Assembly: GCA_002070095.1 (NCBI GenBank)
Contig: MWCR01000014.1
Span: 1-36,582 of the forward strand
Source of the DNA: Parcubacteria group bacterium ADurb.Bin192
GTDB taxonomy: Bacteria > Patescibacteriota > Patescibacteriia > 2-12-FULL-60-25
Direction: 5' to 3'
DNA: 36,582 nucleotides
The notes beneath the pieces are model-generated. The model searched no databases and was not told where the DNA came from. It worked only from the letters and a program-made list of their open reading frames with translations. Shown here piece by piece: positions 14,183 through 34,693 of the stretch. A program made the translations under genes and the position numbers. Position 1 is the stretch's first letter. Every line of letters starts with the position of its first letter.

Positions 14183-14956
14183 ATGTTGTGGTTATATAAT
14201 GAACTATTGTTTCGGCCGATTTTGAACCTGTTGATTTGGTTGTATGGCGCTATCCCGGGGAGTGAATTGGGCGTGGCCATCATCGTGCTGACCGTGATCG
14301 TTAAACTGATTTTATATCCGTTTACGGTTTCTCAAATCAAACAACAGCGGGCCTTGCAGCTCATGCAGCCCAAGATGGCGGAAATACGTTCCCGTTTGAA
14401 AAACGACAAAGAAGCGCAAGCTAAGGAGTTGATGGAGTTATACCGCAAAGAGAAAGTTAATCCGGCAGCCTCCTGTCTGCCGTTGTTGATTCAATTGCCG
14501 GTTTTCATCGCTCTGTATCAGGCTTTGTCCGTAGGCTTAAAATCAGAGGCTCTGCCGGCCTTGTATTCTTTTGTACCCAACCCGGGAGTTATTCACGCCA
14601 CCCTTTTCGGTTTGACTGATTTGGCCAACCCCAATCATGTGCTGGCGGCTTTGGCGGCCGGTGTTCAGTTTTGGCAGTCCTGGATGATGATGAAAAAACC
14701 CAGTCCCACTACACCGCCTCCGCCTGAAGTGCAAGGTGATAAAGGAGCTAAAGACGAAGATATGGCGGCCATGGTTAACAAGCAGATGATGTATATCATG
14801 CCCATCATGACCTTGTTCATCGGCATCAAATTGCCCGGAGGCTTGACTCTTTATTGGTTGGTAATGAGCTTGCTGACGGTCGCACAGCAATATTGGATGA
14901 TGCGTCAGCCCATCCCGCCCGCGCCGGAAGCGCATATCACGCCACAAAACACGTAA
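14183..14956 (+). CDS. yidC: Membrane protein insertase YidC/Oxa1
   Basis: YidC inserts and folds proteins in the cytoplasmic membrane. The ATG at 14183 is preferred to an in-frame TTG at 14174 because it begins at the conserved short N-terminus before the first membrane segment. The 257-residue protein is the short form without a periplasmic domain. It has a first hydrophobic segment (ILNLLIWLYGAIPGSELGVA), the cytoplasmic helical hairpin rich in K/Q/R (QIKQQRALQLMQPKMAEIR, then DKEAQAKELMELYRKEKVNP), the typical CLPLLIQLPVFIALYQAL segment and a final hydrophobic pair with GIKLPGGLTLYW. It follows nusA by 37 bp, probably in one operon; the usual rnpA/rpmH/jag neighbours are not here. No SD is visible. 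Confidence 0.95.
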   Translation: MLWLYNELLFRPILNLLIWLYGAIPGSELGVAIIVLTVIVKLILYPFTVSQIKQQRALQLMQPKMAEIRSRLKNDKEAQAKELMELYRKEKVNPAASCLPLLIQLPVFIALYQALSVGLKSEALPALYSFVPNPGVIHATLFGLTDLANPNHVLAALAAGVQFWQSWMMMKKPSPTTPPPPEVQGDKGAKDEDMAAMVNKQMMYIMPIMTLFIGIKLPGGLTLYWLVMSLLTVAQQYWMMRQPIPPAPEAHITPQNT

Positions 14957-15014
14957 CATGTAACACGTAACAACAATTGTTACATGCTATGTGCTACATG
15001 TTACATGCTACATG
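14950..15014. repeat. ACATG/GTAAC-type simple palindromic repeat
   Basis: Interleaved units of the type ACATGTAACACGTAAC and TGCTACATGTTACATG occupy the gap after yidC and fold back on each other. Similar units recur at 22451-22486, 24664-24719, 31222-31300 and 34310-34366. Confidence 0.6.
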
Positions 15015-15018
15015 AAAT

Positions 15019-15327
15019 ATGTTTCGTTTTACTCCCAAATCTCGTTTGATGGCACAAACCAAAAGCGGCCTGGCTTTGGGCAAGGTTTTGGCTATCGAAG
15101 TCGATGAACAGACCGGCAGGATAGTGAATTTTTCGATTTCAGCTCATCGGGCCGTCCCGGCCATCATAGACAAAGTTTTATTGGTTGCCTGGGACCAGGT
15201 GGTGGATTGGAGAGCGGAGGTTTTAATTGTGGCTGACGCCGTGGTCGGTTCGCAGGCCTTGGCTTCTGCCGTCCTGCCCAACCCCGGAACATCCATCCAG
15301 ATGAACAAGGATATCAATCGGTCTTAA
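15019..15327 (+). CDS. PRC-barrel domain protein
   Basis: The 102-residue protein begins MFRFTPKSRLMAQTKSGLAL and continues GKVLAIEVDEQTGRIVNFSI, a PRC-barrel signature: a small beta-barrel found in RNA-processing and photosynthetic proteins and as stand-alone proteins of unknown role. It has no signal peptide or membrane segment. A second in-frame ATG at 15049 is possible, since the barrel begins just after it, but the ATG at 15019 is kept. It sits 9 bp before the next gene and probably shares its transcript. The domain assignment is fairly safe; the cellular role is unknown. Confidence 0.75.
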   Translation: MFRFTPKSRLMAQTKSGLALGKVLAIEVDEQTGRIVNFSISAHRAVPAIIDKVLLVAWDQVVDWRAEVLIVADAVVGSQALASAVLPNPGTSIQMNKDINRS

Positions 15328-16257: not shown

Positions 16258-16266
16258 CCCCCTCCT

Positions 16267-16332
16267 GTCATTCCCGTGAAAACGGGAATCCACGAAGCTC
16301 ACCCCGCGTCATTCCCATGAAAATGGGAATCC
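16267..16332. repeat. Two copies of the GTCATTCCC hairpin repeat
   Basis: GTCATTCCC at 16267 and again at 16308 each begin a hairpin in which ATTCCC pairs with GGGAAT across a short A-rich loop (25 bp per copy). The first has GTGAAAAC in the loop region, the second ATGAAAAT. The second copy forms the left border of the GIY-YIG nuclease gene. Confidence 0.85.
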
Positions 16333-16349
16333 ATGAGCTGATTGATACC

Positions 16350-16661
16350 ATGAAAACCGCCTACATCTACATCCTGTCATCTAAGAAAAATGGGACATTG
16401 TACATTGGCGTTACCAGTGATCTTCTAAAAAGAGTATATGAACATAAGCATGATTTGGTTGATGGTTTTACTAGTAAATACGGCGTACATGATTTAGTAT
16501 ATTTTGAGCAATGTGATTCCATGTATGCGGCAATTACCAGAGAGAAACAATTAAAAAAGTGGAATCGTGCATGGAAAGTCGAGTTAATCGAGGAGTTTAA
16601 TTCAACATGGGCTGATCTGTTTGATGATTTAGTGACTGGATCCCCGCCTACGCGAGGATGA
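16350..16661 (+). CDS. Small GIY-YIG endonuclease framed by palindromic repeats
   Basis: GIY-YIG domains are single-domain DNA nucleases. This 103-residue protein has the signature as YIYILSSKKNGTLYIGVTSD, the conserved Arg and His of LLKRVYEHK, and REKQLKKWNRAWKVELI with the catalytic-region Glu; it belongs to the small stand-alone URI/YhbQ-like group. The ATG at 16350 is chosen because upstream in-frame ATG codons (from 16317) lie within the left repeat and would add repeat-encoded residues. The C-terminus (GSPPTRG) and stop codon are themselves encoded by the right repeat arm (GGATCCCCGCC... at 16638). The gene therefore sits between the two arms of a repeat that occurs without it in the tandem array downstream. 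This suggests a mobile repeat-nuclease element; an unlinked housekeeping nuclease is the alternative. Confidence 0.88.
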   Translation: MKTAYIYILSSKKNGTLYIGVTSDLLKRVYEHKHDLVDGFTSKYGVHDLVYFEQCDSMYAAITREKQLKKWNRAWKVELIEEFNSTWADLFDDLVTGSPPTRG

Positions 16662-16670
16662 CAACCCTTT

Positions 16671-17120
16671 GTCATTCCCATGAAAATGGGAATCCACGAA
16701 GCTCAAGACATGGATCCCCGCGTTCGCGAGGATGACAAACATCAGTCATTCCCTTTGATCCCTCCGTCACTGCCTTTGACCCTTTCCGTCATTCCCATGA
16801 AAATGGGAATCCACGAAGCTCAAGACATGGATCCCCGCGTTCGCGAGGATGACAAACATCAGTCATTCCCTTTGATCCCTCCGTCACTGCCTTTGACCCT
16901 TTCCGTCATTCCCATGAAAATGGGAATCCACGAAGCTCAAGACATGGATCCCCGCGTTCGCGAGGATGACAAACATCAGTCATTCCCTTTGATCCCTCCG
17001 TCACTGCCTTTGACCCTTTCCGTCATTCCCATGAAAATGGGAATCCACGAAGCTCAAGACATGGATCCCCGCCTACGCGAGGATGACAACCCTTTGTCAT
17101 TCCCTTGAAAAAGGGAATCC
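16671..17120. repeat. 117-bp tandem repeat array
   Basis: Three identical-looking 117-bp units begin at 16671, 16788 and 16905, followed by a fourth, diverged partial unit at 17022 and a final hairpin fragment at 17096-17120. Each unit contains a left hairpin (GTCATTCCCATGAAAATGGG), a spacer, a right hairpin (GGATCCCCGCGTTCGCGAGG followed by ATGAC) and a linker with two further GTCA-type fragments. Because 117 is divisible by three, the array is open in one frame and would encode a spurious 39-residue periodic peptide. This array fills the 494-bp gap between the GIY-YIG gene and the next gene; no gene is seen in it. Confidence 0.92.
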
Positions 17121-17155
17121 ACGGAGCTTCATGCTACAGCGACAAAGAGTAATAT

Positions 17156-21198: not shown

Positions 21199-21228
21199 CC
21201 CTCTCTTGAGTAAGAGAGGGCAGGGTGA
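21199..21228. repeat. CCCTCTC hairpin repeat
   Basis: CCCTCTCTTGAGTAAGAGAG followed by GGCAGGGTGAG forms a hairpin and belongs to the same class as the copy at 23802-23833 downstream of the DUF559 gene (CCCTCTCTT...GAGAGGGATGGGGTGAG). Confidence 0.7.
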
Positions 21229-21284
21229 GTTAGTCTACATGACTTACAAACAAGCTCGACACCGGCTCATTCTCAAGCTAACAT

Positions 21285-22421: not shown

Positions 22422-22759
22422 AGTTTATCGCGTACATAACGTACTGCGTCACATAACACATAACATGTAGCATGTAGCATGTAACAGCGTCCTGCGTCAG
22501 AGTTGTGCTCCTCCTTTCAGATGAGGAGGGGCGAGGGGGTGGTGTTGATGCTGATAAACTATTGATCATGTCACTTCGAGGTCGCCCTGTCATCCTGAGT
22601 GCTAATGAAGGATCTGGTGCGGGCGACCGTTACTCACCTGACAAGTTTTATGAAGGATCTGGTGCGGGCGACCGAACGCCGTGCTGTGGTACGGTACTCG
22701 CGAGTGCCGTACCAATCTCACTTAATAACTAACCACGTATAACGAAAAACAAAAATCAT
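22422..22759. repeat. Repeat-filled intergenic region
   Basis: No gene is seen in these 338 bp. From left to right: ACATAACACATAACATGTAG-type simple repeats (22427-22486); a CTCCTC...GAGGAG hairpin (about 22506-22530); a GTCATCCTGAG...AAGGATCT repeat (22589-22615); a 24-bp direct duplication beginning TGAAGGATCTGGTGCGGGCG at 22606 and 22651; and a 26-bp near-palindrome with a central TCGCGA (22688-22713). Confidence 0.8.
22688..22713. repeat. 26-bp near-palindrome with central TCGCGA, copy 1
   Basis: Arms GGTACGGTAC and GTGCCGTACC flank a central TCGCGA. The related copy at 34596-34621 has almost the same arms. Confidence 0.75.
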
Positions 22760-23374
22760 ATGAATGTAATCAAGCCAAATGATCCAAACGTGATTGAAAG
22801 AGCGATCAGCGTTTTAAAGGAAGGCGGTGTTTTGGCTTTTCCAACAGAGACAACTTATGGCTTGGGTTGCGACCCGCGTAATAAGCAGGCCCTGGGCAAG
22901 ATTTATCGTATCAAGGGCCGCGACCAATCCAAAGCTTTACCGCTGGTAGCTTGCTCACCGGAGCAGGTTGAACAATTTTTTAGTTATCCGGAGCAGGCGG
23001 ACCGGGTGGCTGATAAATATTGGCACGGCCCGTTGACCATATTGTTAGAGCCGATTGATATGAATGTCAGGCGTCAGATGCCGGTCTTTAAAGATGGTTT
23101 GGCCGCGGTGCGCGTTAGTTCGCATCCTTTGGTGCAAGCTTTAGCCTGTACTTATGGCTTTCCTTTGACGGCCACCTCGGCGAATTTGAGCGGTCAAAAA
23201 GCTTGCTTGTCAGCCGATGAAGTACTTGAGTCTTTTAAGGATTTGCCCAAAGATAGGCAGCCGGATTTGATGATTGACGGCGGCATTTTGTCGGAGAGTG
23301 AGCCGTCGACATTGATCAAAGTGGAAGATGATGGGAATATTAGCGTGTTAAGGCAGGGGGCGATTAGGTTATAA
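22760..23374 (+). CDS. tsaC: L-threonylcarbamoyladenylate synthase (TsaC/YrdC/Sua5)
   Basis: This enzyme makes threonylcarbamoyl-AMP from threonine, bicarbonate and ATP, the first step of tRNA t6A37 modification. The 204-residue protein has the YrdC signature: FPTETTYGLGCDPRNKQAL, the IYRIKGRDQSKALPLV motif, WHGPLTILLE, VRVSSHPLVQAL and TATSANLSG, ending with the conserved STLIKV and LRQGAI. It is the single-domain form without the Sua5 C-terminal domain. It starts at ATG 22760 without an SD. The partner proteins TsaB, TsaD and TsaE are not in the window. Confidence 0.95.
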   Translation: MNVIKPNDPNVIERAISVLKEGGVLAFPTETTYGLGCDPRNKQALGKIYRIKGRDQSKALPLVACSPEQVEQFFSYPEQADRVADKYWHGPLTILLEPIDMNVRRQMPVFKDGLAAVRVSSHPLVQALACTYGFPLTATSANLSGQKACLSADEVLESFKDLPKDRQPDLMIDGGILSESEPSTLIKVEDDGNISVLRQGAIRL

Positions 23375-23386
23375 ACTCCTCTAGCT

Positions 23387-23404
23387 CCTCTTAAGATTAA
23401 GAGG
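23387..23404. repeat. Left inverted repeat of the DUF559 gene
   Basis: CCTCTTAAGATTAAGAGG is a hairpin 25 bp before the DUF559 ORF. Its 16-bp core CTCTTAAGATTAAGAG is the exact reverse complement of the core of the right-hand repeat (CTCTTAATCTTAAGAG, within 23802-23825). Confidence 0.8.
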
Positions 23405-23429
23405 ATGACCGGCAAGCCGCTTTAATCAT

Positions 23430-23795
23430 ATGACCTTGATTTTAAATACACAAAAAATGAAGCTCATTAGAAAGGTTTTGCGTCATAATCAGACCGAGGC
23501 TGAACGATTATTGTGGCAAAAACTTAGGAATAAGCGATTGGCTGGTTTAAAATTTTATCGTCAATTTAGTGTCGGGCGTTATGTTTTGGATTTTTATTGT
23601 CCAGAACTGCGCCTTTGCATTGAGCTTGACGGCTCTCAGCATGTACGGGAAGAAACGATTGAATACGATAAAGAACGTACAAAGTTTTTAAATAGTTTAC
23701 GAATTAAAGTCATCCGGTTTTGGAATAGCGAGATTATTTCAAACATGAAGGGTGTCCTTGAAAGTCTACGCAAAGAATGCGATAGTTACCCATAG
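23430..23795 (+). CDS. DUF559 endonuclease-fold protein flanked by inverted repeats
   Basis: DUF559 (PF04480) proteins share the Vsr/restriction-endonuclease fold. The 121-residue protein has the family pattern: RHNQTEAERLLWQKLRNKRL, then LKFYRQFSVGRYVLDFYCPE (catalytic Asp) and LRLCIELDGSQHVRE (Glu-Leu-Asp-Gly and His). The full set of motifs suggests an active nuclease. The start is ATG 23430 or the second ATG at 23457, just before the conserved core. There is no SD. The gene is bounded by inverted copies of a CTCTTAA-type hairpin (23387-23404 and 23802-23825), and its stop codon lies 6 bp before the right-hand repeat. It interrupts the tsaC-rsmA interval and looks like an inserted unit. 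The biological role of these solitary DUF559 proteins is unknown. Confidence 0.88.
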   Translation: MTLILNTQKMKLIRKVLRHNQTEAERLLWQKLRNKRLAGLKFYRQFSVGRYVLDFYCPELRLCIELDGSQHVREETIEYDKERTKFLNSLRIKVIRFWNSEIISNMKGVLESLRKECDSYP

Positions 23796-23801
23796 ACTTC
23801 A

Positions 23802-23833
23802 CCCTCTCTTAATCTTAAGAGAGGGATGGGGTG
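23802..23833. repeat. Right inverted repeat of the DUF559 gene
   Basis: CCCTCTCTTAATCTTAAGAG continuing AGGG is a 24-bp palindrome (23802-23825), followed by ATGGGGTG. It belongs to the same class as the copy at 21199. Confidence 0.8.
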
Positions 23834-23844
23834 AGTTTATAACC

Positions 23845-24684
23845 ATGAACCCCTCACAAATAAAACAATTATTATTTGAACGTGGTTTGAGACCCAATAA
23901 GAATTTAGGCCAGCATTTTTTAATTGATAAAAATATTTTAGGTAAAATTGTCGACGCAGCCGATTTACATAAAAACGATCTGATCATGGAAGTCGGACCG
24001 GGCTTAGGTGTGTTGACCGAAGCTTTAGTGGAGCGCGGAGCCCATGTTAAAGCTATTGAGAAAGACAGGAATTTTATTGAACATTTGTCAGCCATCAAGA
24101 ATGTTGAGGTTGAGCCGGGGGATGCGGCCAAGCTTGATTGGAATGATTTGGTTAAAGGCAAACCATGGAAGTTTGTGTCTAATTTGCCGTACGCTATTAC
24201 ATCACTGGCGTTACGTAAGGCTTTGTACGAGGTTGATAAGGCCCCTGAATTAGTAGTGGTATTGATACAACGAGAAGTGGCGGAGAGGATCGCCCCACGT
24301 CGATCTTCTAACGTTACTCGTCCCAAAATGTCTTTATTGTCGCTTATGGTTGCGCTGGCCGCAAAAGAAGTCGCAATCGTCCATCGCGTGCCCGCCGGTG
24401 CTTTTTATCCTCCGCCGAAAGTGGAGTCAGCCATACTTAAAATCGTGCCAAGGTCTCATGTCGCTCGTCGCACGTTGTGGGGAATAGAGCCGGAGGAGGT
24501 TATGAAAACCGCTAAGCTGGGCTTTGCTCATCCGCGCAAGCTTTTGCAGAGGAATCTAAATATAGATAACTCCCGGTGGGAGCAGATGGTTCAGGAGATT
24601 GGTATTAACGGCAAAGCCAGGGCTGAAGAATTGTCCGTAGAGCAGTGGGTCAAACTCACAAAGCATGTAGCATGTAGCATGTAG
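23845..24684 (+). CDS. rsmA: 16S rRNA adenine dimethyltransferase RsmA (KsgA)
   Basis: RsmA dimethylates the two adjacent adenines of the 16S rRNA 3' hairpin (A1518/A1519 in E. coli), a late step of small-subunit assembly. The ATG at 23845 gives 279 residues; in-frame codons upstream run through the neighbouring repeat and are not conserved. Motifs: RPNKNLGQHFLID, the SAM-binding MEVGPGLGVLTEAL, GDAAKLDW and the catalytic NLPYAITS, then the C-terminal domain with GAFYPPPKVESAIL. The last residues (HVACSM) and the stop codon are encoded by a GTAGCAT-type repeat that begins inside the gene, so the natural C-terminus has been replaced or extended by repeat DNA. No SD is seen. Confidence 0.95.
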   Translation: MNPSQIKQLLFERGLRPNKNLGQHFLIDKNILGKIVDAADLHKNDLIMEVGPGLGVLTEALVERGAHVKAIEKDRNFIEHLSAIKNVEVEPGDAAKLDWNDLVKGKPWKFVSNLPYAITSLALRKALYEVDKAPELVVVLIQREVAERIAPRRSSNVTRPKMSLLSLMVALAAKEVAIVHRVPAGAFYPPPKVESAILKIVPRSHVARRTLWGIEPEEVMKTAKLGFAHPRKLLQRNLNIDNSRWEQMVQEIGINGKARAEELSVEQWVKLTKHVACSM

Positions 24685-24719
24685 CATTATTGTTACATGT
24701 TACAAGTTATATGCTACAA
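24664..24719. repeat. GTAGCAT heptad repeat hairpin
   Basis: Three head-to-tail ATGTAGC units (24665-24685) face GTTACATGTTACAAGTTATA and TGCTACA, forming an imperfect hairpin. It overlaps the 3' end of rsmA and lies between convergent genes. Confidence 0.75.
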
Positions 24720-27284: not shown

Positions 27285-29189
27285 TTACGGACATCCTGGA
27301 TAGACGGGTATCGGAATGCTTTGTGAAAATTCAGTACCGTCTCCCAACATGCCGTAGAAATTACTGCCCCAGCACCACAAGGAGCCGTCTAGCTTGATGG
27401 CGCAGGAGTGACCGCCTCCATACGTGTCATTTCCACCGCCCAAACTAAGGCTTGCGACCTGATTTCCCAGAGTGGTTACGGGTACCGGGGTGGATCTGAC
27501 AGTTGTTGTACCGTCTCCCAGCTGGCCATAGTAGTTGGCGCCCCAGCACCACAAGGTGCCGTCTTGTTTAATGGCACAGGCATGGCCGAGTTCTGACCAC
27601 CCGGTTCCGCTGGCCGTAGAGGATGGACTATTGGCCACAAAAATGGCTTGGTCGGTCAAATTCACTTGGACCGGAGATGGTTTGCAGACGTGTGTTTTGT
27701 TGTAACCGCAGGCTTGTCCGGTATTCGTTCCATCTCCCAGCTGACCTTGGTCATTGATGCCCCAGCACCAGACCGTGCCATTGCTCTTGAGCGCGCAGGT
27801 GTTGTAGGTCCCGCCGGCGATCTGCAAGACTTGCCCGCTTAAAGACGCTATTTGGACAGGTGTCAGCCGGCAGATTTTATAGCCGTACAAGCAAGATTCG
27901 CCTTGTTCATTAAGGGTGCTGTCACCCACTTCTCCAAAGTAATTGTGCCCCCAGCACCAGACCGTGCCGTCGCTCTTGAGCGCGCAAGAATGAAAAGCTC
28001 CGACCGTCACTTGGCTGACATTACTGCCCAGCGTTGTTACTTGTGTCGGCGGCAGATCTACGCCTCCAAAGGTTCCGTTACCGGCTACTTGGCCATACTC
28101 GTTGTTGCCCCAGCACCAAACCGTGCCGTCGCTCTTGAGGGCGCAGGCGTGCTCGGGTCCCATGGATATCTCGGAGACATTTGTTCCGAGTGTGTTTAGC
28201 TGAAAGATGCTTCTGTCCGGCTTGCCCCAGCACCATACCGTCTGATCTTGCTTGATGGCGCAGGAGTTTCTGTAACCCGTACTCACATACCGGATACCCT
28301 CTCCCAGAAAGCTGATCGGCAAAGGCGTTTCGTAGCTATTGTAATAGCCTGAGGGCAGAATTTGTCCGGCGTGGTTCGCGCCCCAGCAATACAGTTTTCC
28401 GTCTTGGCTAAGGCCGCAGGTATGGAATCTGCCGGCCGAGATCATCTTGGCTCCGGCCACGAAGTTGCCGTCGCAGCACAAGCAGGTGGCTGAAGAACAG
28501 ACATCGTCTTGCCAGGTATGGTTTGTACCGCAGGTCTGGGCGATGTTATTGTCACACCGCTTGTCCCCGGGCTGGCACTCACCCACACACTCGCCGTTCA
28601 GGCACTGGAACTCGCAGACAGTCTGATCCTCCCACTCATTCTGCTGACTGCAGAGCTGGGGAGTCAGGCCGTCACACCGCTTGTCTCCTGTCTGGCATTC
28701 ACCCACGCACTCGCCGTTCAGGCAGACGTACGGGCAGGTCTCAACTTCTTGCCAGATACGGTCAGAGTCGCAGAGCTGGGCCGTCAAGCCTGAGCACTTC
28801 TTGTCCCCGGGCTGGCACTCACCCACACACTCGCCGTTCAGGCACTGGAACTCGCAGACAGTCTGGTCTTCCCACTTATTCTGCTGACTGCAGAGCTGGG
28901 GAGTCAGGCCGTCACAGCGCCTGTCTCCGGCTTGGCATTCACCCAGGCACTCACCGTCAAGGCAGACGTACGGACAGGTCTCAACTTCTTGCCAGATACG
29001 GTCAGAGTCGCAGAGCTGGGCCGTCAAGCCTGAGCACTTCTTATCCCCGGGCTGGCAGCCTGTGGGGGCGGTTTCCTGTTCATCAGTACCCGCGTCCGTC
29101 GGTGCGACGGGGGATTTTTGCCCTTCGCCGGATCCGCAGTTGAGATTAGCCAAAATGAGCGCGAACAGGCAGAGAAGCATCTTACGCAT
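27285..29189 (-). CDS. Secreted cysteine-repeat and RCC1-repeat protein
   Basis: The 634-residue protein starts with a hydrophobic export signal (MRKMLLCLFALILANLNC); the cysteine at 18 could be lipidated, but the residues before it do not fit the usual lipobox. Residues 45-204 are four 40-residue cysteine repeats in an A-B-A-B order (CQPGDKKCSGLTAQLC... and CQAGDRRCDGLTPQLC...), with a fifth diverged copy to about 245. The A-B pair is duplicated at the DNA level with a 240-bp period. From about 250 to the end there are about seven RCC1-like blades of the form HSCALKSDGTVWCWG-NN-YGQ, probably a beta-propeller. Such combinations are well known in Myxococcota and relatives, so transfer is possible. 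An SD (AAGGAGG, 5 nt before ATG) and a TTGACT promoter distinguish it from most neighbours. A ligand-binding surface role is inferred. Confidence 0.88.
   Translation of the reverse strand: MRKMLLCLFALILANLNCGSGEGQKSPVAPTDAGTDEQETAPTGCQPGDKKCSGLTAQLCDSDRIWQEVETCPYVCLDGECLGECQAGDRRCDGLTPQLCSQQNKWEDQTVCEFQCLNGECVGECQPGDKKCSGLTAQLCDSDRIWQEVETCPYVCLNGECVGECQTGDKRCDGLTPQLCSQQNEWEDQTVCEFQCLNGECVGECQPGDKRCDNNIAQTCGTNHTWQDDVCSSATCLCCDGNFVAGAKMISAGRFHTCGLSQDGKLYCWGANHAGQILPSGYYNSYETPLPISFLGEGIRYVSTGYRNSCAIKQDQTVWCWGKPDRSIFQLNTLGTNVSEISMGPEHACALKSDGTVWCWGNNEYGQVAGNGTFGGVDLPPTQVTTLGSNVSQVTVGAFHSCALKSDGTVWCWGHNYFGEVGDSTLNEQGESCLYGYKICRLTPVQIASLSGQVLQIAGGTYNTCALKSNGTVWCWGINDQGQLGDGTNTGQACGYNKTHVCKPSPVQVNLTDQAIFVANSPSSTASGTGWSELGHACAIKQDGTLWCWGANYYGQLGDGTTTVRSTPVPVTTLGNQVASLSLGGGNDTYGGGHSCAIKLDGSLWCWGSNFYGMLGDGTEFSQSIPIPVYPGCP
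28561..29055. repeat. 240-bp tandem duplication inside the cysteine-repeat region
   Basis: The same sequence returns at a spacing of exactly 240 bp, for example GGCACTGGAACTCGCAGACA at 28601 and 28841, and the GATACGGTCAGAGTCGCAGA block near 28755 and 28995. 240 bp is 80 residues, one A-B pair of cysteine repeats. Confidence 0.88.
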
Positions 29190-31118: not shown

Positions 31119-31336
31119 AGCAAGGTTAATATTTTGGTGTTATGCACAGCCCGGCGGTCCGACCCTTGATTTTATTGGCTAAAATGCTTGCATGACTTTT
31201 TCGTCTCGAGTATACTTGGTCACATGTCATGTAGCATGCAGCATGTAGCATGTAGCAAAATTAAAATAATTTGTTACAAGATACAGGTTGCAGTTGCATG
31301 AAAAGATAAATCATTTATTTTTTTATACTTTGCATT
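31119..31336. promoter_or_regulatory. HU gene upstream region
   Basis: TTGCAT (31188-31193), 17 bp, TATACT (31211-31216) form a good promoter; a GTAGCAT heptad repeat hairpin follows (31222-31300); and a second -10-like TATACT (31324-31329) ends 7 nt before the HU ATG. Two starts, one nearly leaderless, are possible. Confidence 0.55.
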
Positions 31337-34286: not shown

Positions 34287-34693
34287 CGTCCATCGCCTCC
34301 TTAACGTCCTCTCACGTACATCACGTACATAACGTCTGCATTCACAAAACATTTAACACGTAACATCGTCCCATGGGATGCTGTTCGCGAACGATCACCC
34401 AAGTCAAAACCAATACTGTCATTGCGAGCGAAGCGTGGCAATCTATTAATAACCCCTCCATCATCCTGTATTACTACCCTTGTCATCCTGAATTTACGTG
34501 CCCCTCGAAGTCGTAAGACATGGTGGGGGTTCAGGATCTCATCACTAAATAATTAAAACCACAACTATGTCATTGCGAGCGAGTCTGACGAGCGTGGTAT
34601 GGCGTTCGCGAACTCCGTACCGTGGCAATCTATAAATAACCAATCATCAAATCGGCAATCTAACTCAAATAACGAACAATTTATTCTGAAGGT
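34287..34693. repeat. Nested repeat region between the TrmH/SpoU and DHH genes
   Basis: These 407 bp contain no gene. In order: CACGTACATAACG/TAACACGTAAC simple repeats (34310-34366); a 26-bp near-palindrome centred on TCGCGA (34375-34400); GTCATTGCGAGCGAAGCGTG ending GCAATCT (34418-34444); a GTCATCCTGAA...TTCAGGATCT element (34482-34539); and a longer GTCATTGCGAGCGA...GTGGCAATCT element (34569-34631) with another 26-bp palindrome inside it. Confidence 0.8.
34596..34621. repeat. 26-bp near-palindrome with central TCGCGA, copy 3
   Basis: Arms GGTATGGCGT and ACTCCGTACC flank TCGCGA. The unit lies inside a GTCATTGCGAG...GCAATCT repeat, as if inserted there. Confidence 0.75.

Follow-up and report, generated by a model that had tools for sequence, protein, structure and literature searches.

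The DUF559 nuclease gene found between tsaC and rsmA in a Parcubacteria group genome is, we propose, one copy of a nuclease-plus-repeat element, and DUF559 is probably the dedicated nuclease of the triplex repeats known as BoxC/TM. As far as it can be read from the sequences themselves, the case consists of an insert, its inverted ends, empty sites in relatives, copies of the repeat alone and a near-universal linkage of DUF559 genes with such repeats; linkage, co-transmission and insertion are all supported by these facts. The analysis started from a window of 36,582 nucleotides, i.e. the whole stretch of contig MWCR01000014.1 from Parcubacteria group bacterium ADurb.Bin192 that was analysed.

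BoxC/PIT/TM repeats have been known in Escherichia coli since the 1990s. DUF559, for its part, is a large family whose function is not settled. It had been described just as a predicted nuclease (PMC1189080), and our search of open-access full text found no paper in which repeats, palindromic or triplex, are tied to DUF559, PF04480 or ycjD. The BoxC/PIT/TM repeats are described as intrastrand-triplex repeats present in more than 260 genomes and always intergenic in E. coli (PMC4666352).

Results

The insert between tsaC and rsmA

An insert of 474 nt bearing the DUF559 gene splits the overlapping tsaC-rsmA pair and leaves both genes intact, the TAA stop codon of tsaC being at the same time the first bases of the left end of the insert (Table 1). 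Nothing separates the two genes in four congeners, nor in several further genera of the family, where they overlap as ATGA; among the genomes compared only that of the window contains the insert. The empty junction of the congeners carries no repeat at all, so the unit appears to have arrived together with its repeats. A first-pass annotation of the window had likened the gene to an inserted cassette and called for orthologous sites without it; these sites exist in the congeners and strongly support the cassette, which leaves no room for tsaC-DUF559-rsmA as an ancient conserved order.

Table 1. Coordinates of the features of the DUF559 locus and of the nearby solo repeat copy in the window.
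Feature	Position	Strand	Description	Match
tsaC (Sua5/YciO/YrdC)	22760..23374	+	left neighbour	Pfam PF01300, E 5e-45
Left repeat unit	23369..23405	+	outer end TTATAAACTC; third-strand block AACTCCTC (23374-23381); palindrome TCCTCTTAAGATTAAGAGGA (23386-23405)	
DUF559 nuclease gene	23430..23795	+	121 aa, Vsr-like PD-(D/E)XK (EDxHD) fold	PF04480, E 7e-36
Right repeat unit	23802..23842	-	inverted relative to the left unit; palindrome CCCTCTCTTAATCTTAAGAGAGGG (23802-23825)	
Right unit, outer blocks			third strand GGGTGAGTT (23829-23837); outer end GAGTTTATAA (23833-23842)	
rsmA	23845..24684	+	right neighbour	PF00398, E 1e-41
Solo repeat copy, same class, without nuclease	21199..21231	-	CCCTCTCTTGAGTAAGAGAGGG + GGGTGAGTT	

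The same annotation had described exact reverse-complementary palindromes on the two sides of the gene, and both position and a shuffle test bear this out: the 16-mers CTCTTAAGATTAAGAG (23388-23403) and CTCTTAATCTTAAGAG (23806-23821) are exact reverse complements, two occurrences being found where shuffled sequences gave an expectation of 0.30. These 16-mers are the cores of longer palindromes (TCCTCTTAAGATTAAGAGGA and CCCTCTCTTAATCTTAAGAGAGGG), of which the left one ends 24 nt before the ATG and the right one begins 6 nt past the stop. The distances of 25 and 6 bp proposed earlier mix the boundaries of core and extended repeats. The outer block AACTC...(Y) had been overlooked; in terms of a triplex motif, it represents the third strand, with mirror symmetry. 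The gene-free copy announced at 21199 is indeed present; its palindrome spans 21199-21220 and its third strand matches at 9/9 positions.

The outermost ends of the insert are the inverted 10-mers TTATAAACTC and GAGTTTATAA. Both the loop and the TTATAAACTC end recur in a solo copy elsewhere (L009) that has no nuclease, and the outer TTATAA, inverted and itself palindromic, is present beside this copy too. This end may therefore belong to the repeat and is unreadable as a target duplication. No clear target-site duplication could be read at the ends of the insert, which counts against a mobile element.

Further repeats were seen in the window. Another Y/R palindrome, with a long common tail (GAGGAGGGGYGAGGGGGTGGTGTTGAWGCTRATAAAC), lies upstream of tsaC (22508-22560) and recurs at locus L232. 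Short intergenic ACATGTAACATGTAGCA repeats occur in both orientations at 14928-15019, 22442-22486, 24658-24718, 31213-31257 and 34320-34366. At 27334-29157 there are tandem repeats, whose periods range from about 120 to 220 nt; these are probably the coding sequence of a repeat protein on the minus strand.

A three-block repeat unit

The complete unit is made of a Y arm, a loop, an R arm, a short linker and a mirror-symmetric third strand. The further block lies outside each palindrome, as in AACTCACCC-nn-[CCCTCTCTT..AAGAGAGGG], TAACCACCCCCAA-[CCCCTCCT..] and AAATCCCCCTTGG-[TCCCCCTTT..], and on the purine strand it mirrors the R arm: G stands over G, and either A or T over A, as in the purine-motif rule for triplexes. 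By this rule (G.GC, A/T.AT), the left unit of the window matches at 8/8 positions and the right one at 9/9. Among 209 palindromes flanking DUF559 genes, 157 match at 8/9 or better and 114 at 9/9; with tails swapped between loci having different arms, the corresponding means were 34 and 5 (maxima 48 and 10), and with shuffled tails 10 and 0.5. In the window's own genome, 14 of the 15 other fetched copies score 9/9, and the fetched solo copies of E. coli match at 10/10 positions. The putative third strand therefore co-varies, at the level of sequence, with the stem. The consensus of the unit reads TAACTCACCCYRCCCTCTCTTnnnnAAGAGAGGGTTCTGA.

Linkage of DUF559 genes with the repeats

We surveyed 97 DUF559 loci for a polypyrimidine-polypurine palindrome (stem of at least 8, loop of at most 8) within 200 nt of the gene. 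Twenty-seven loci came from the window's own GTDB family and 70 from genome_contigs (Patescibacteria, Bacteroidota, Chloroflexota, Nitrospirota, Desulfobacterota, Cyanobacteria, Proteobacteria, Zixibacteria, Acidobacteria and others); the latter were picked by the protein motif DFYC, not by their flanks, and cover one large DUF559 clade. Such palindromes were observed at 90/97 loci from about ten phyla (23/27 in the family, 67/70 in genome_contigs) and on both flanks at 62/97 (17/27 and 45/70, respectively). The same test gave 0/26 for GIY-YIG genes and 2/24 for rsmA, and windows displaced along the same loci gave 99/2308 for any side and 1/2308 for both sides. Fisher tests of the DUF559 loci against controls gave 1e-20 and 3e-96. 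The suspected association between DUF559 and the repeats is therefore strongly supported, and the distances between repeat and gene are not random. The DUF559 genes of Neisseria, Azospirillum, Sinorhizobium and Sphingomonas likewise adjoin such palindromes.

The two flanks of a locus are usually alike, while differing between loci. Nuclease identity and repeat-arm similarity are correlated, with a Mantel rho of 0.20 overall and of 0.17 when only cross-phylum pairs are considered (0/500 permutations), so that the co-variation is statistically clear but weak.

The broader proposal, that small solitary nucleases in general are associated with palindromic repeats, fails, since none of the 26 GIY-YIG loci from the same genomes has this kind of repeat. 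Strong palindromes of any kind on both sides are about as frequent around GIY-YIG genes (5/26) as around rsmA (4/24). The GIY-YIG gene of the window (16317-16661) lies among seven ATTCCC..GGGAAT palindromes of the CGTC-REP kind (16259-17130), and a minority of the congeneric GIY-YIG genes have matching palindromes on both sides (L163, L180, L181, L185). The CGTC-REP class is said to be without transposase (PMC3733652).

Repeats and nucleases in the own genome and in the family

The window's own genome (1.44 Mb, 69 contigs) contains 20 copies of the strict pattern CCTCTYTT-N-AAGAGAGG vs 0 of the reversed control pattern, and 4 of these 20 copies lie within 200 nt of one of its three DUF559 genes (binomial P ~2.5e-8). 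Two of these genes have a CCTCTYTT-class repeat on either side; an elp3-like gene contains the third, in frame and between inverted copies of another class, CCCTTTGACAAGGG and relatives. Solo copies and inverted pairs are dispersed (pairs at L002, L222 and L224, and also at phnK-phnL of E. coli). Within a genome, the loops of solo copies are often those flanking the resident nuclease, for instance GTTT in G030 and CCAAA in G038.

We then compared 41 genomes of the family, which are also the order-level sample, by per-genome correlations that ignore relatedness. The CCTCTCTT class is present in 10 of them, and DUF559 in 8 of these 10 vs 9 of the 31 genomes without the class (p 0.0065). The copy number of the CCCCCTTT class (class-2) follows the number of clade-2 nucleases, with a rho of 0.61 (p 3e-5) over the 41 genomes and of 0.65 (p 0.06) within the genus. 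In one congener (G032), 22 copies of the repeat were counted but DUF559 gave no match, so repeats can persist or spread without a resident nuclease.

DUF559 units are mostly intergenic, the in-frame cases being elp3 and tatD. The linker of elp3 contains a full unit in frame in three congeners (L003, L190, L205) and a repeat-like translated peptide in two, and it is empty in three; in genome G035, a DUF559 unit lies in frame inside tatD (L239). A nuclease working with its repeats would offer an explanation for such insertions of repeats and nucleases into conserved genes. In genome G031 (L030), a RecQ helicase carries at its N-terminus a fused DUF559 domain from which catalytic residues have been lost, and no repeat flanks it; this degenerate domain is a single natural control.

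ycjD and the repeats of E. coli

In E. coli K-12, the DUF559 gene is ycjD, located between sapF and fabI with a repeat on its right side only, and the genome has about 20 such repeats. The gene is present in 3,365 of 5,426 complete E. coli genomes. Repeats were counted in an even sample of 59 genomes: the median number of repeat places is 18 in the 37 with ycjD (range 9-27) vs 5 in the 22 without it, among which 7 O157/O55-like genomes have 12-17 and 15 have 2-6 (Mann-Whitney, p 2e-9). The contrast follows phylogroup and, phylogeny being uncontrolled, it is suggestive only. We also considered the strains lacking ycjD as clean empty sites and rejected them, sapF being followed there by an efflux operon, as likewise stated in PMC12817139.

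Copies near ycjD and at phnK-phnL have T-T-A and C-C-G linkers and form inverted pairs; the phnK-phnL pair has one linker of each kind, which is the type A/type B arrangement of PMC4666352. At phnK-phnL, most strains have a classical REP pair, whereas ST2747 and A1_181 have an inverted BoxC/TM pair at this site (L258 and L260 vs L259 and L261-L263), so that repeat content is polymorphic within E. coli.

The DUF559 protein

The window protein matches PF04480 with 122.8 bits (gathering score 20.6), and its AF2 model has a pLDDT of 90. A Foldseek search retrieved 3hrl (E 2e-8, 40% identity), I-Bth0305I (3r3p, E 5e-4) and Vsr (1vsr, E 0.03). Over 78 sequences, E25, D54, E65, D67 and D80 are invariant and H71 is at least 90% conserved; the protein is a predicted EDxHD PD-(D/E)XK nuclease whose catalytic residues are conserved. 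Phage carriage was rejected as its main source, a related protein being present in only 3 of 50,697 phage records.

Discussion

We propose that DUF559 would recognize the three-block unit, probably in the form of a triplex or hairpin that becomes exposed when replication or repair leaves the DNA single-stranded, and would nick or cut at the foot of the unit. Host repair could then copy or join the gene-bearing element into new sites, and repeat-only copies likewise, in trans. From comparing sequences we infer that DUF559 binds the repeat and cuts it, that it does so by recognizing the triplex or hairpin, and that its cut causes spread, hence mobility, and not merely deletion or conversion. PD-(D/E)XK nucleases alone are, to our knowledge, not known to transpose DNA. 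Other observations count against an element: the repeats of G032 without DUF559, the 12-17 copies in O157/O55-like strains devoid of ycjD, and the one-sided repeat of ycjD itself. In addition, triplex formation has been shown only in vitro, for the E. coli repeat TMECO, and footprinting in E. coli cells revealed no stable triplex (PMC4666352).

The strongest rival explanation is a homing-type selfish nuclease. DUF559 would then cut gene-free alleles having a repeat or a repeat pair, its gene would be copied in by double-strand-break repair, and the repeats would be target sites or landing pads, spread by another route, instead of the ends of an element. The nearest solved structure of known function is indeed that of a homing endonuclease, I-Bth0305I, repeat-only and gene-bearing alleles exist at the same elp3 linker in congeners, and a genome without nuclease can be repeat-rich, as G032 is. 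However, the tsaC-rsmA junction of the congeners has no repeat that could have served as a landing pad, and matching flanks that differ from locus to locus do not fit well either, so we hold homing to be unlikely. Rather less probable in our opinion is that the triplex repeats are recombination hotspots between which DUF559 was captured by homologous recombination, as a passenger that does not act on them. BoxC/PIT/TM repeats have been linked to genome instability (PMC4666352), and in Legionella both DUF559 segments and genes of the GIY-YIG type are hotspots of recombination within the genome (PMC12308824). Nevertheless, no such capture is seen in the same genomes for GIY-YIG (0/26), rsmA (2/24) or IS200-type genes (0/5), and the co-variation of nuclease clade and repeat type, across phyla too, would not be expected from a passenger.

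The hairpins near both ends of the gene in the window could also be only transcription terminators or regulators of DUF559. This is very improbable: the same units stand alone throughout genomes, far from any DUF559 gene, and in frame inside protein genes, they conserve a third strand which terminators do not need, and earlier assays of BoxC/PIT/TM repeats in E. coli detected neither promoter nor terminator activity (PMC4666352). We give just as little credit to DUF559 being a mismatch-repair nuclease (VSP repair) with coincidental neighbours. This role has been proposed for VsrA of Caulobacter, which has a DUF559 domain and is reported to cause a DNA-damage response, with SOS induction upon loss of a cytosine methylase (PMC12907096). 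On the other hand, no cytosine-C5 methylase (PF00145) was found in five DUF559-bearing genomes of the genus (G000, G028, G030, G034 and G035, with 3, 4, 4, 1 and 5 DUF559 genes, respectively), which makes VSP repair unlikely as a general role, and the flank survey (90/97 vs controls) excludes coincidence. The least credible idea of all is that the repeats are ordinary REPs moved by RAYT (a Y1/HUH transposase) with DUF559 riding along. Y1_Tnp genes do exist in 14 of the 41 family genomes, including G000 and G032, where strict repeats are most numerous, but the Y1 gene of G000 encodes a TnpA of the IS200 type and the stretch fetched around it contains no such repeat, none of 10 fetched Y1 loci has this kind of repeat, Y1_Tnp gave no match in 7 of the 10 genomes with repeats, and the repeat consensus lacks GTAG/CGTC tags.

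Coming back to the nuclease-plus-repeat element, it would join two unknowns, namely the spread of BoxC/PIT/TM repeats and the function of DUF559, in a concrete enzyme-substrate hypothesis that can be tested with ycjD of K-12. The pairing of DUF559 with such repeats, seen in E. coli as well as across about ten phyla, suggests that a repeat common among bacteria has a nuclease as its partner. One would also wonder whether DUF559 and the triplex repeats form a widespread and unrecognized class of prokaryotic mobile DNA, which created BoxC/PIT/TM from E. coli to Patescibacteria; this is a real possibility, on which we would not yet insist. If true, the ends on which a Vsr-like PD-(D/E)XK nuclease operates would be triplexes or hairpins, and ycjD of K-12 would lend itself well as a model.

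A parallel can be drawn with several known systems. Like BoxC/PIT/TM (TMECO), the present repeat is a three-block purine-motif unit with a stem, a short linker and a mirror third strand, dispersed in multiple copies and partly in inverted pairs. The Patescibacteria units are however less G/C-rich, and where the survey of PMC4666352 reported no mobility genes near these repeats, DUF559 is found here within 200 nt in most of the surveyed loci, E. coli ycjD included. As for the enzyme, 3hrl (Neisseria NGO0050) is a DUF559/YcjD-like PF04480 protein of the same family as the window protein. I-Bth0305I and Vsr have in common with it the fold and catalytic residues; the window DUF559, unlike them, is not in an intron or intein, has no link to a cytosine methylase and is framed by structured repeats. 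The closest organization is that of REP/REPIN and RAYT (TnpA_REP), the 'REPtrons' (PMC3733652): there too, one small enzyme gene lies between palindromic repeats in inverted orientation, copies of the repeat alone are numerous, inverted pairs occur, and enzyme and repeat co-vary. In contrast, the DUF559 element has neither a HUH/Y1 enzyme nor a GTAG/CGTC tag; its fold is the unrelated PD-(D/E)XK one, and its repeats have an extra mirror-symmetric third block. If right, our proposal would describe a second system comparable to REP/RAYT but not homologous to it, whose substrate is possibly a triplex, working in a RAYT/REP-like manner without the defining enzyme and tag of that family, and possibly, should mobility be demonstrated, a wholly new class.
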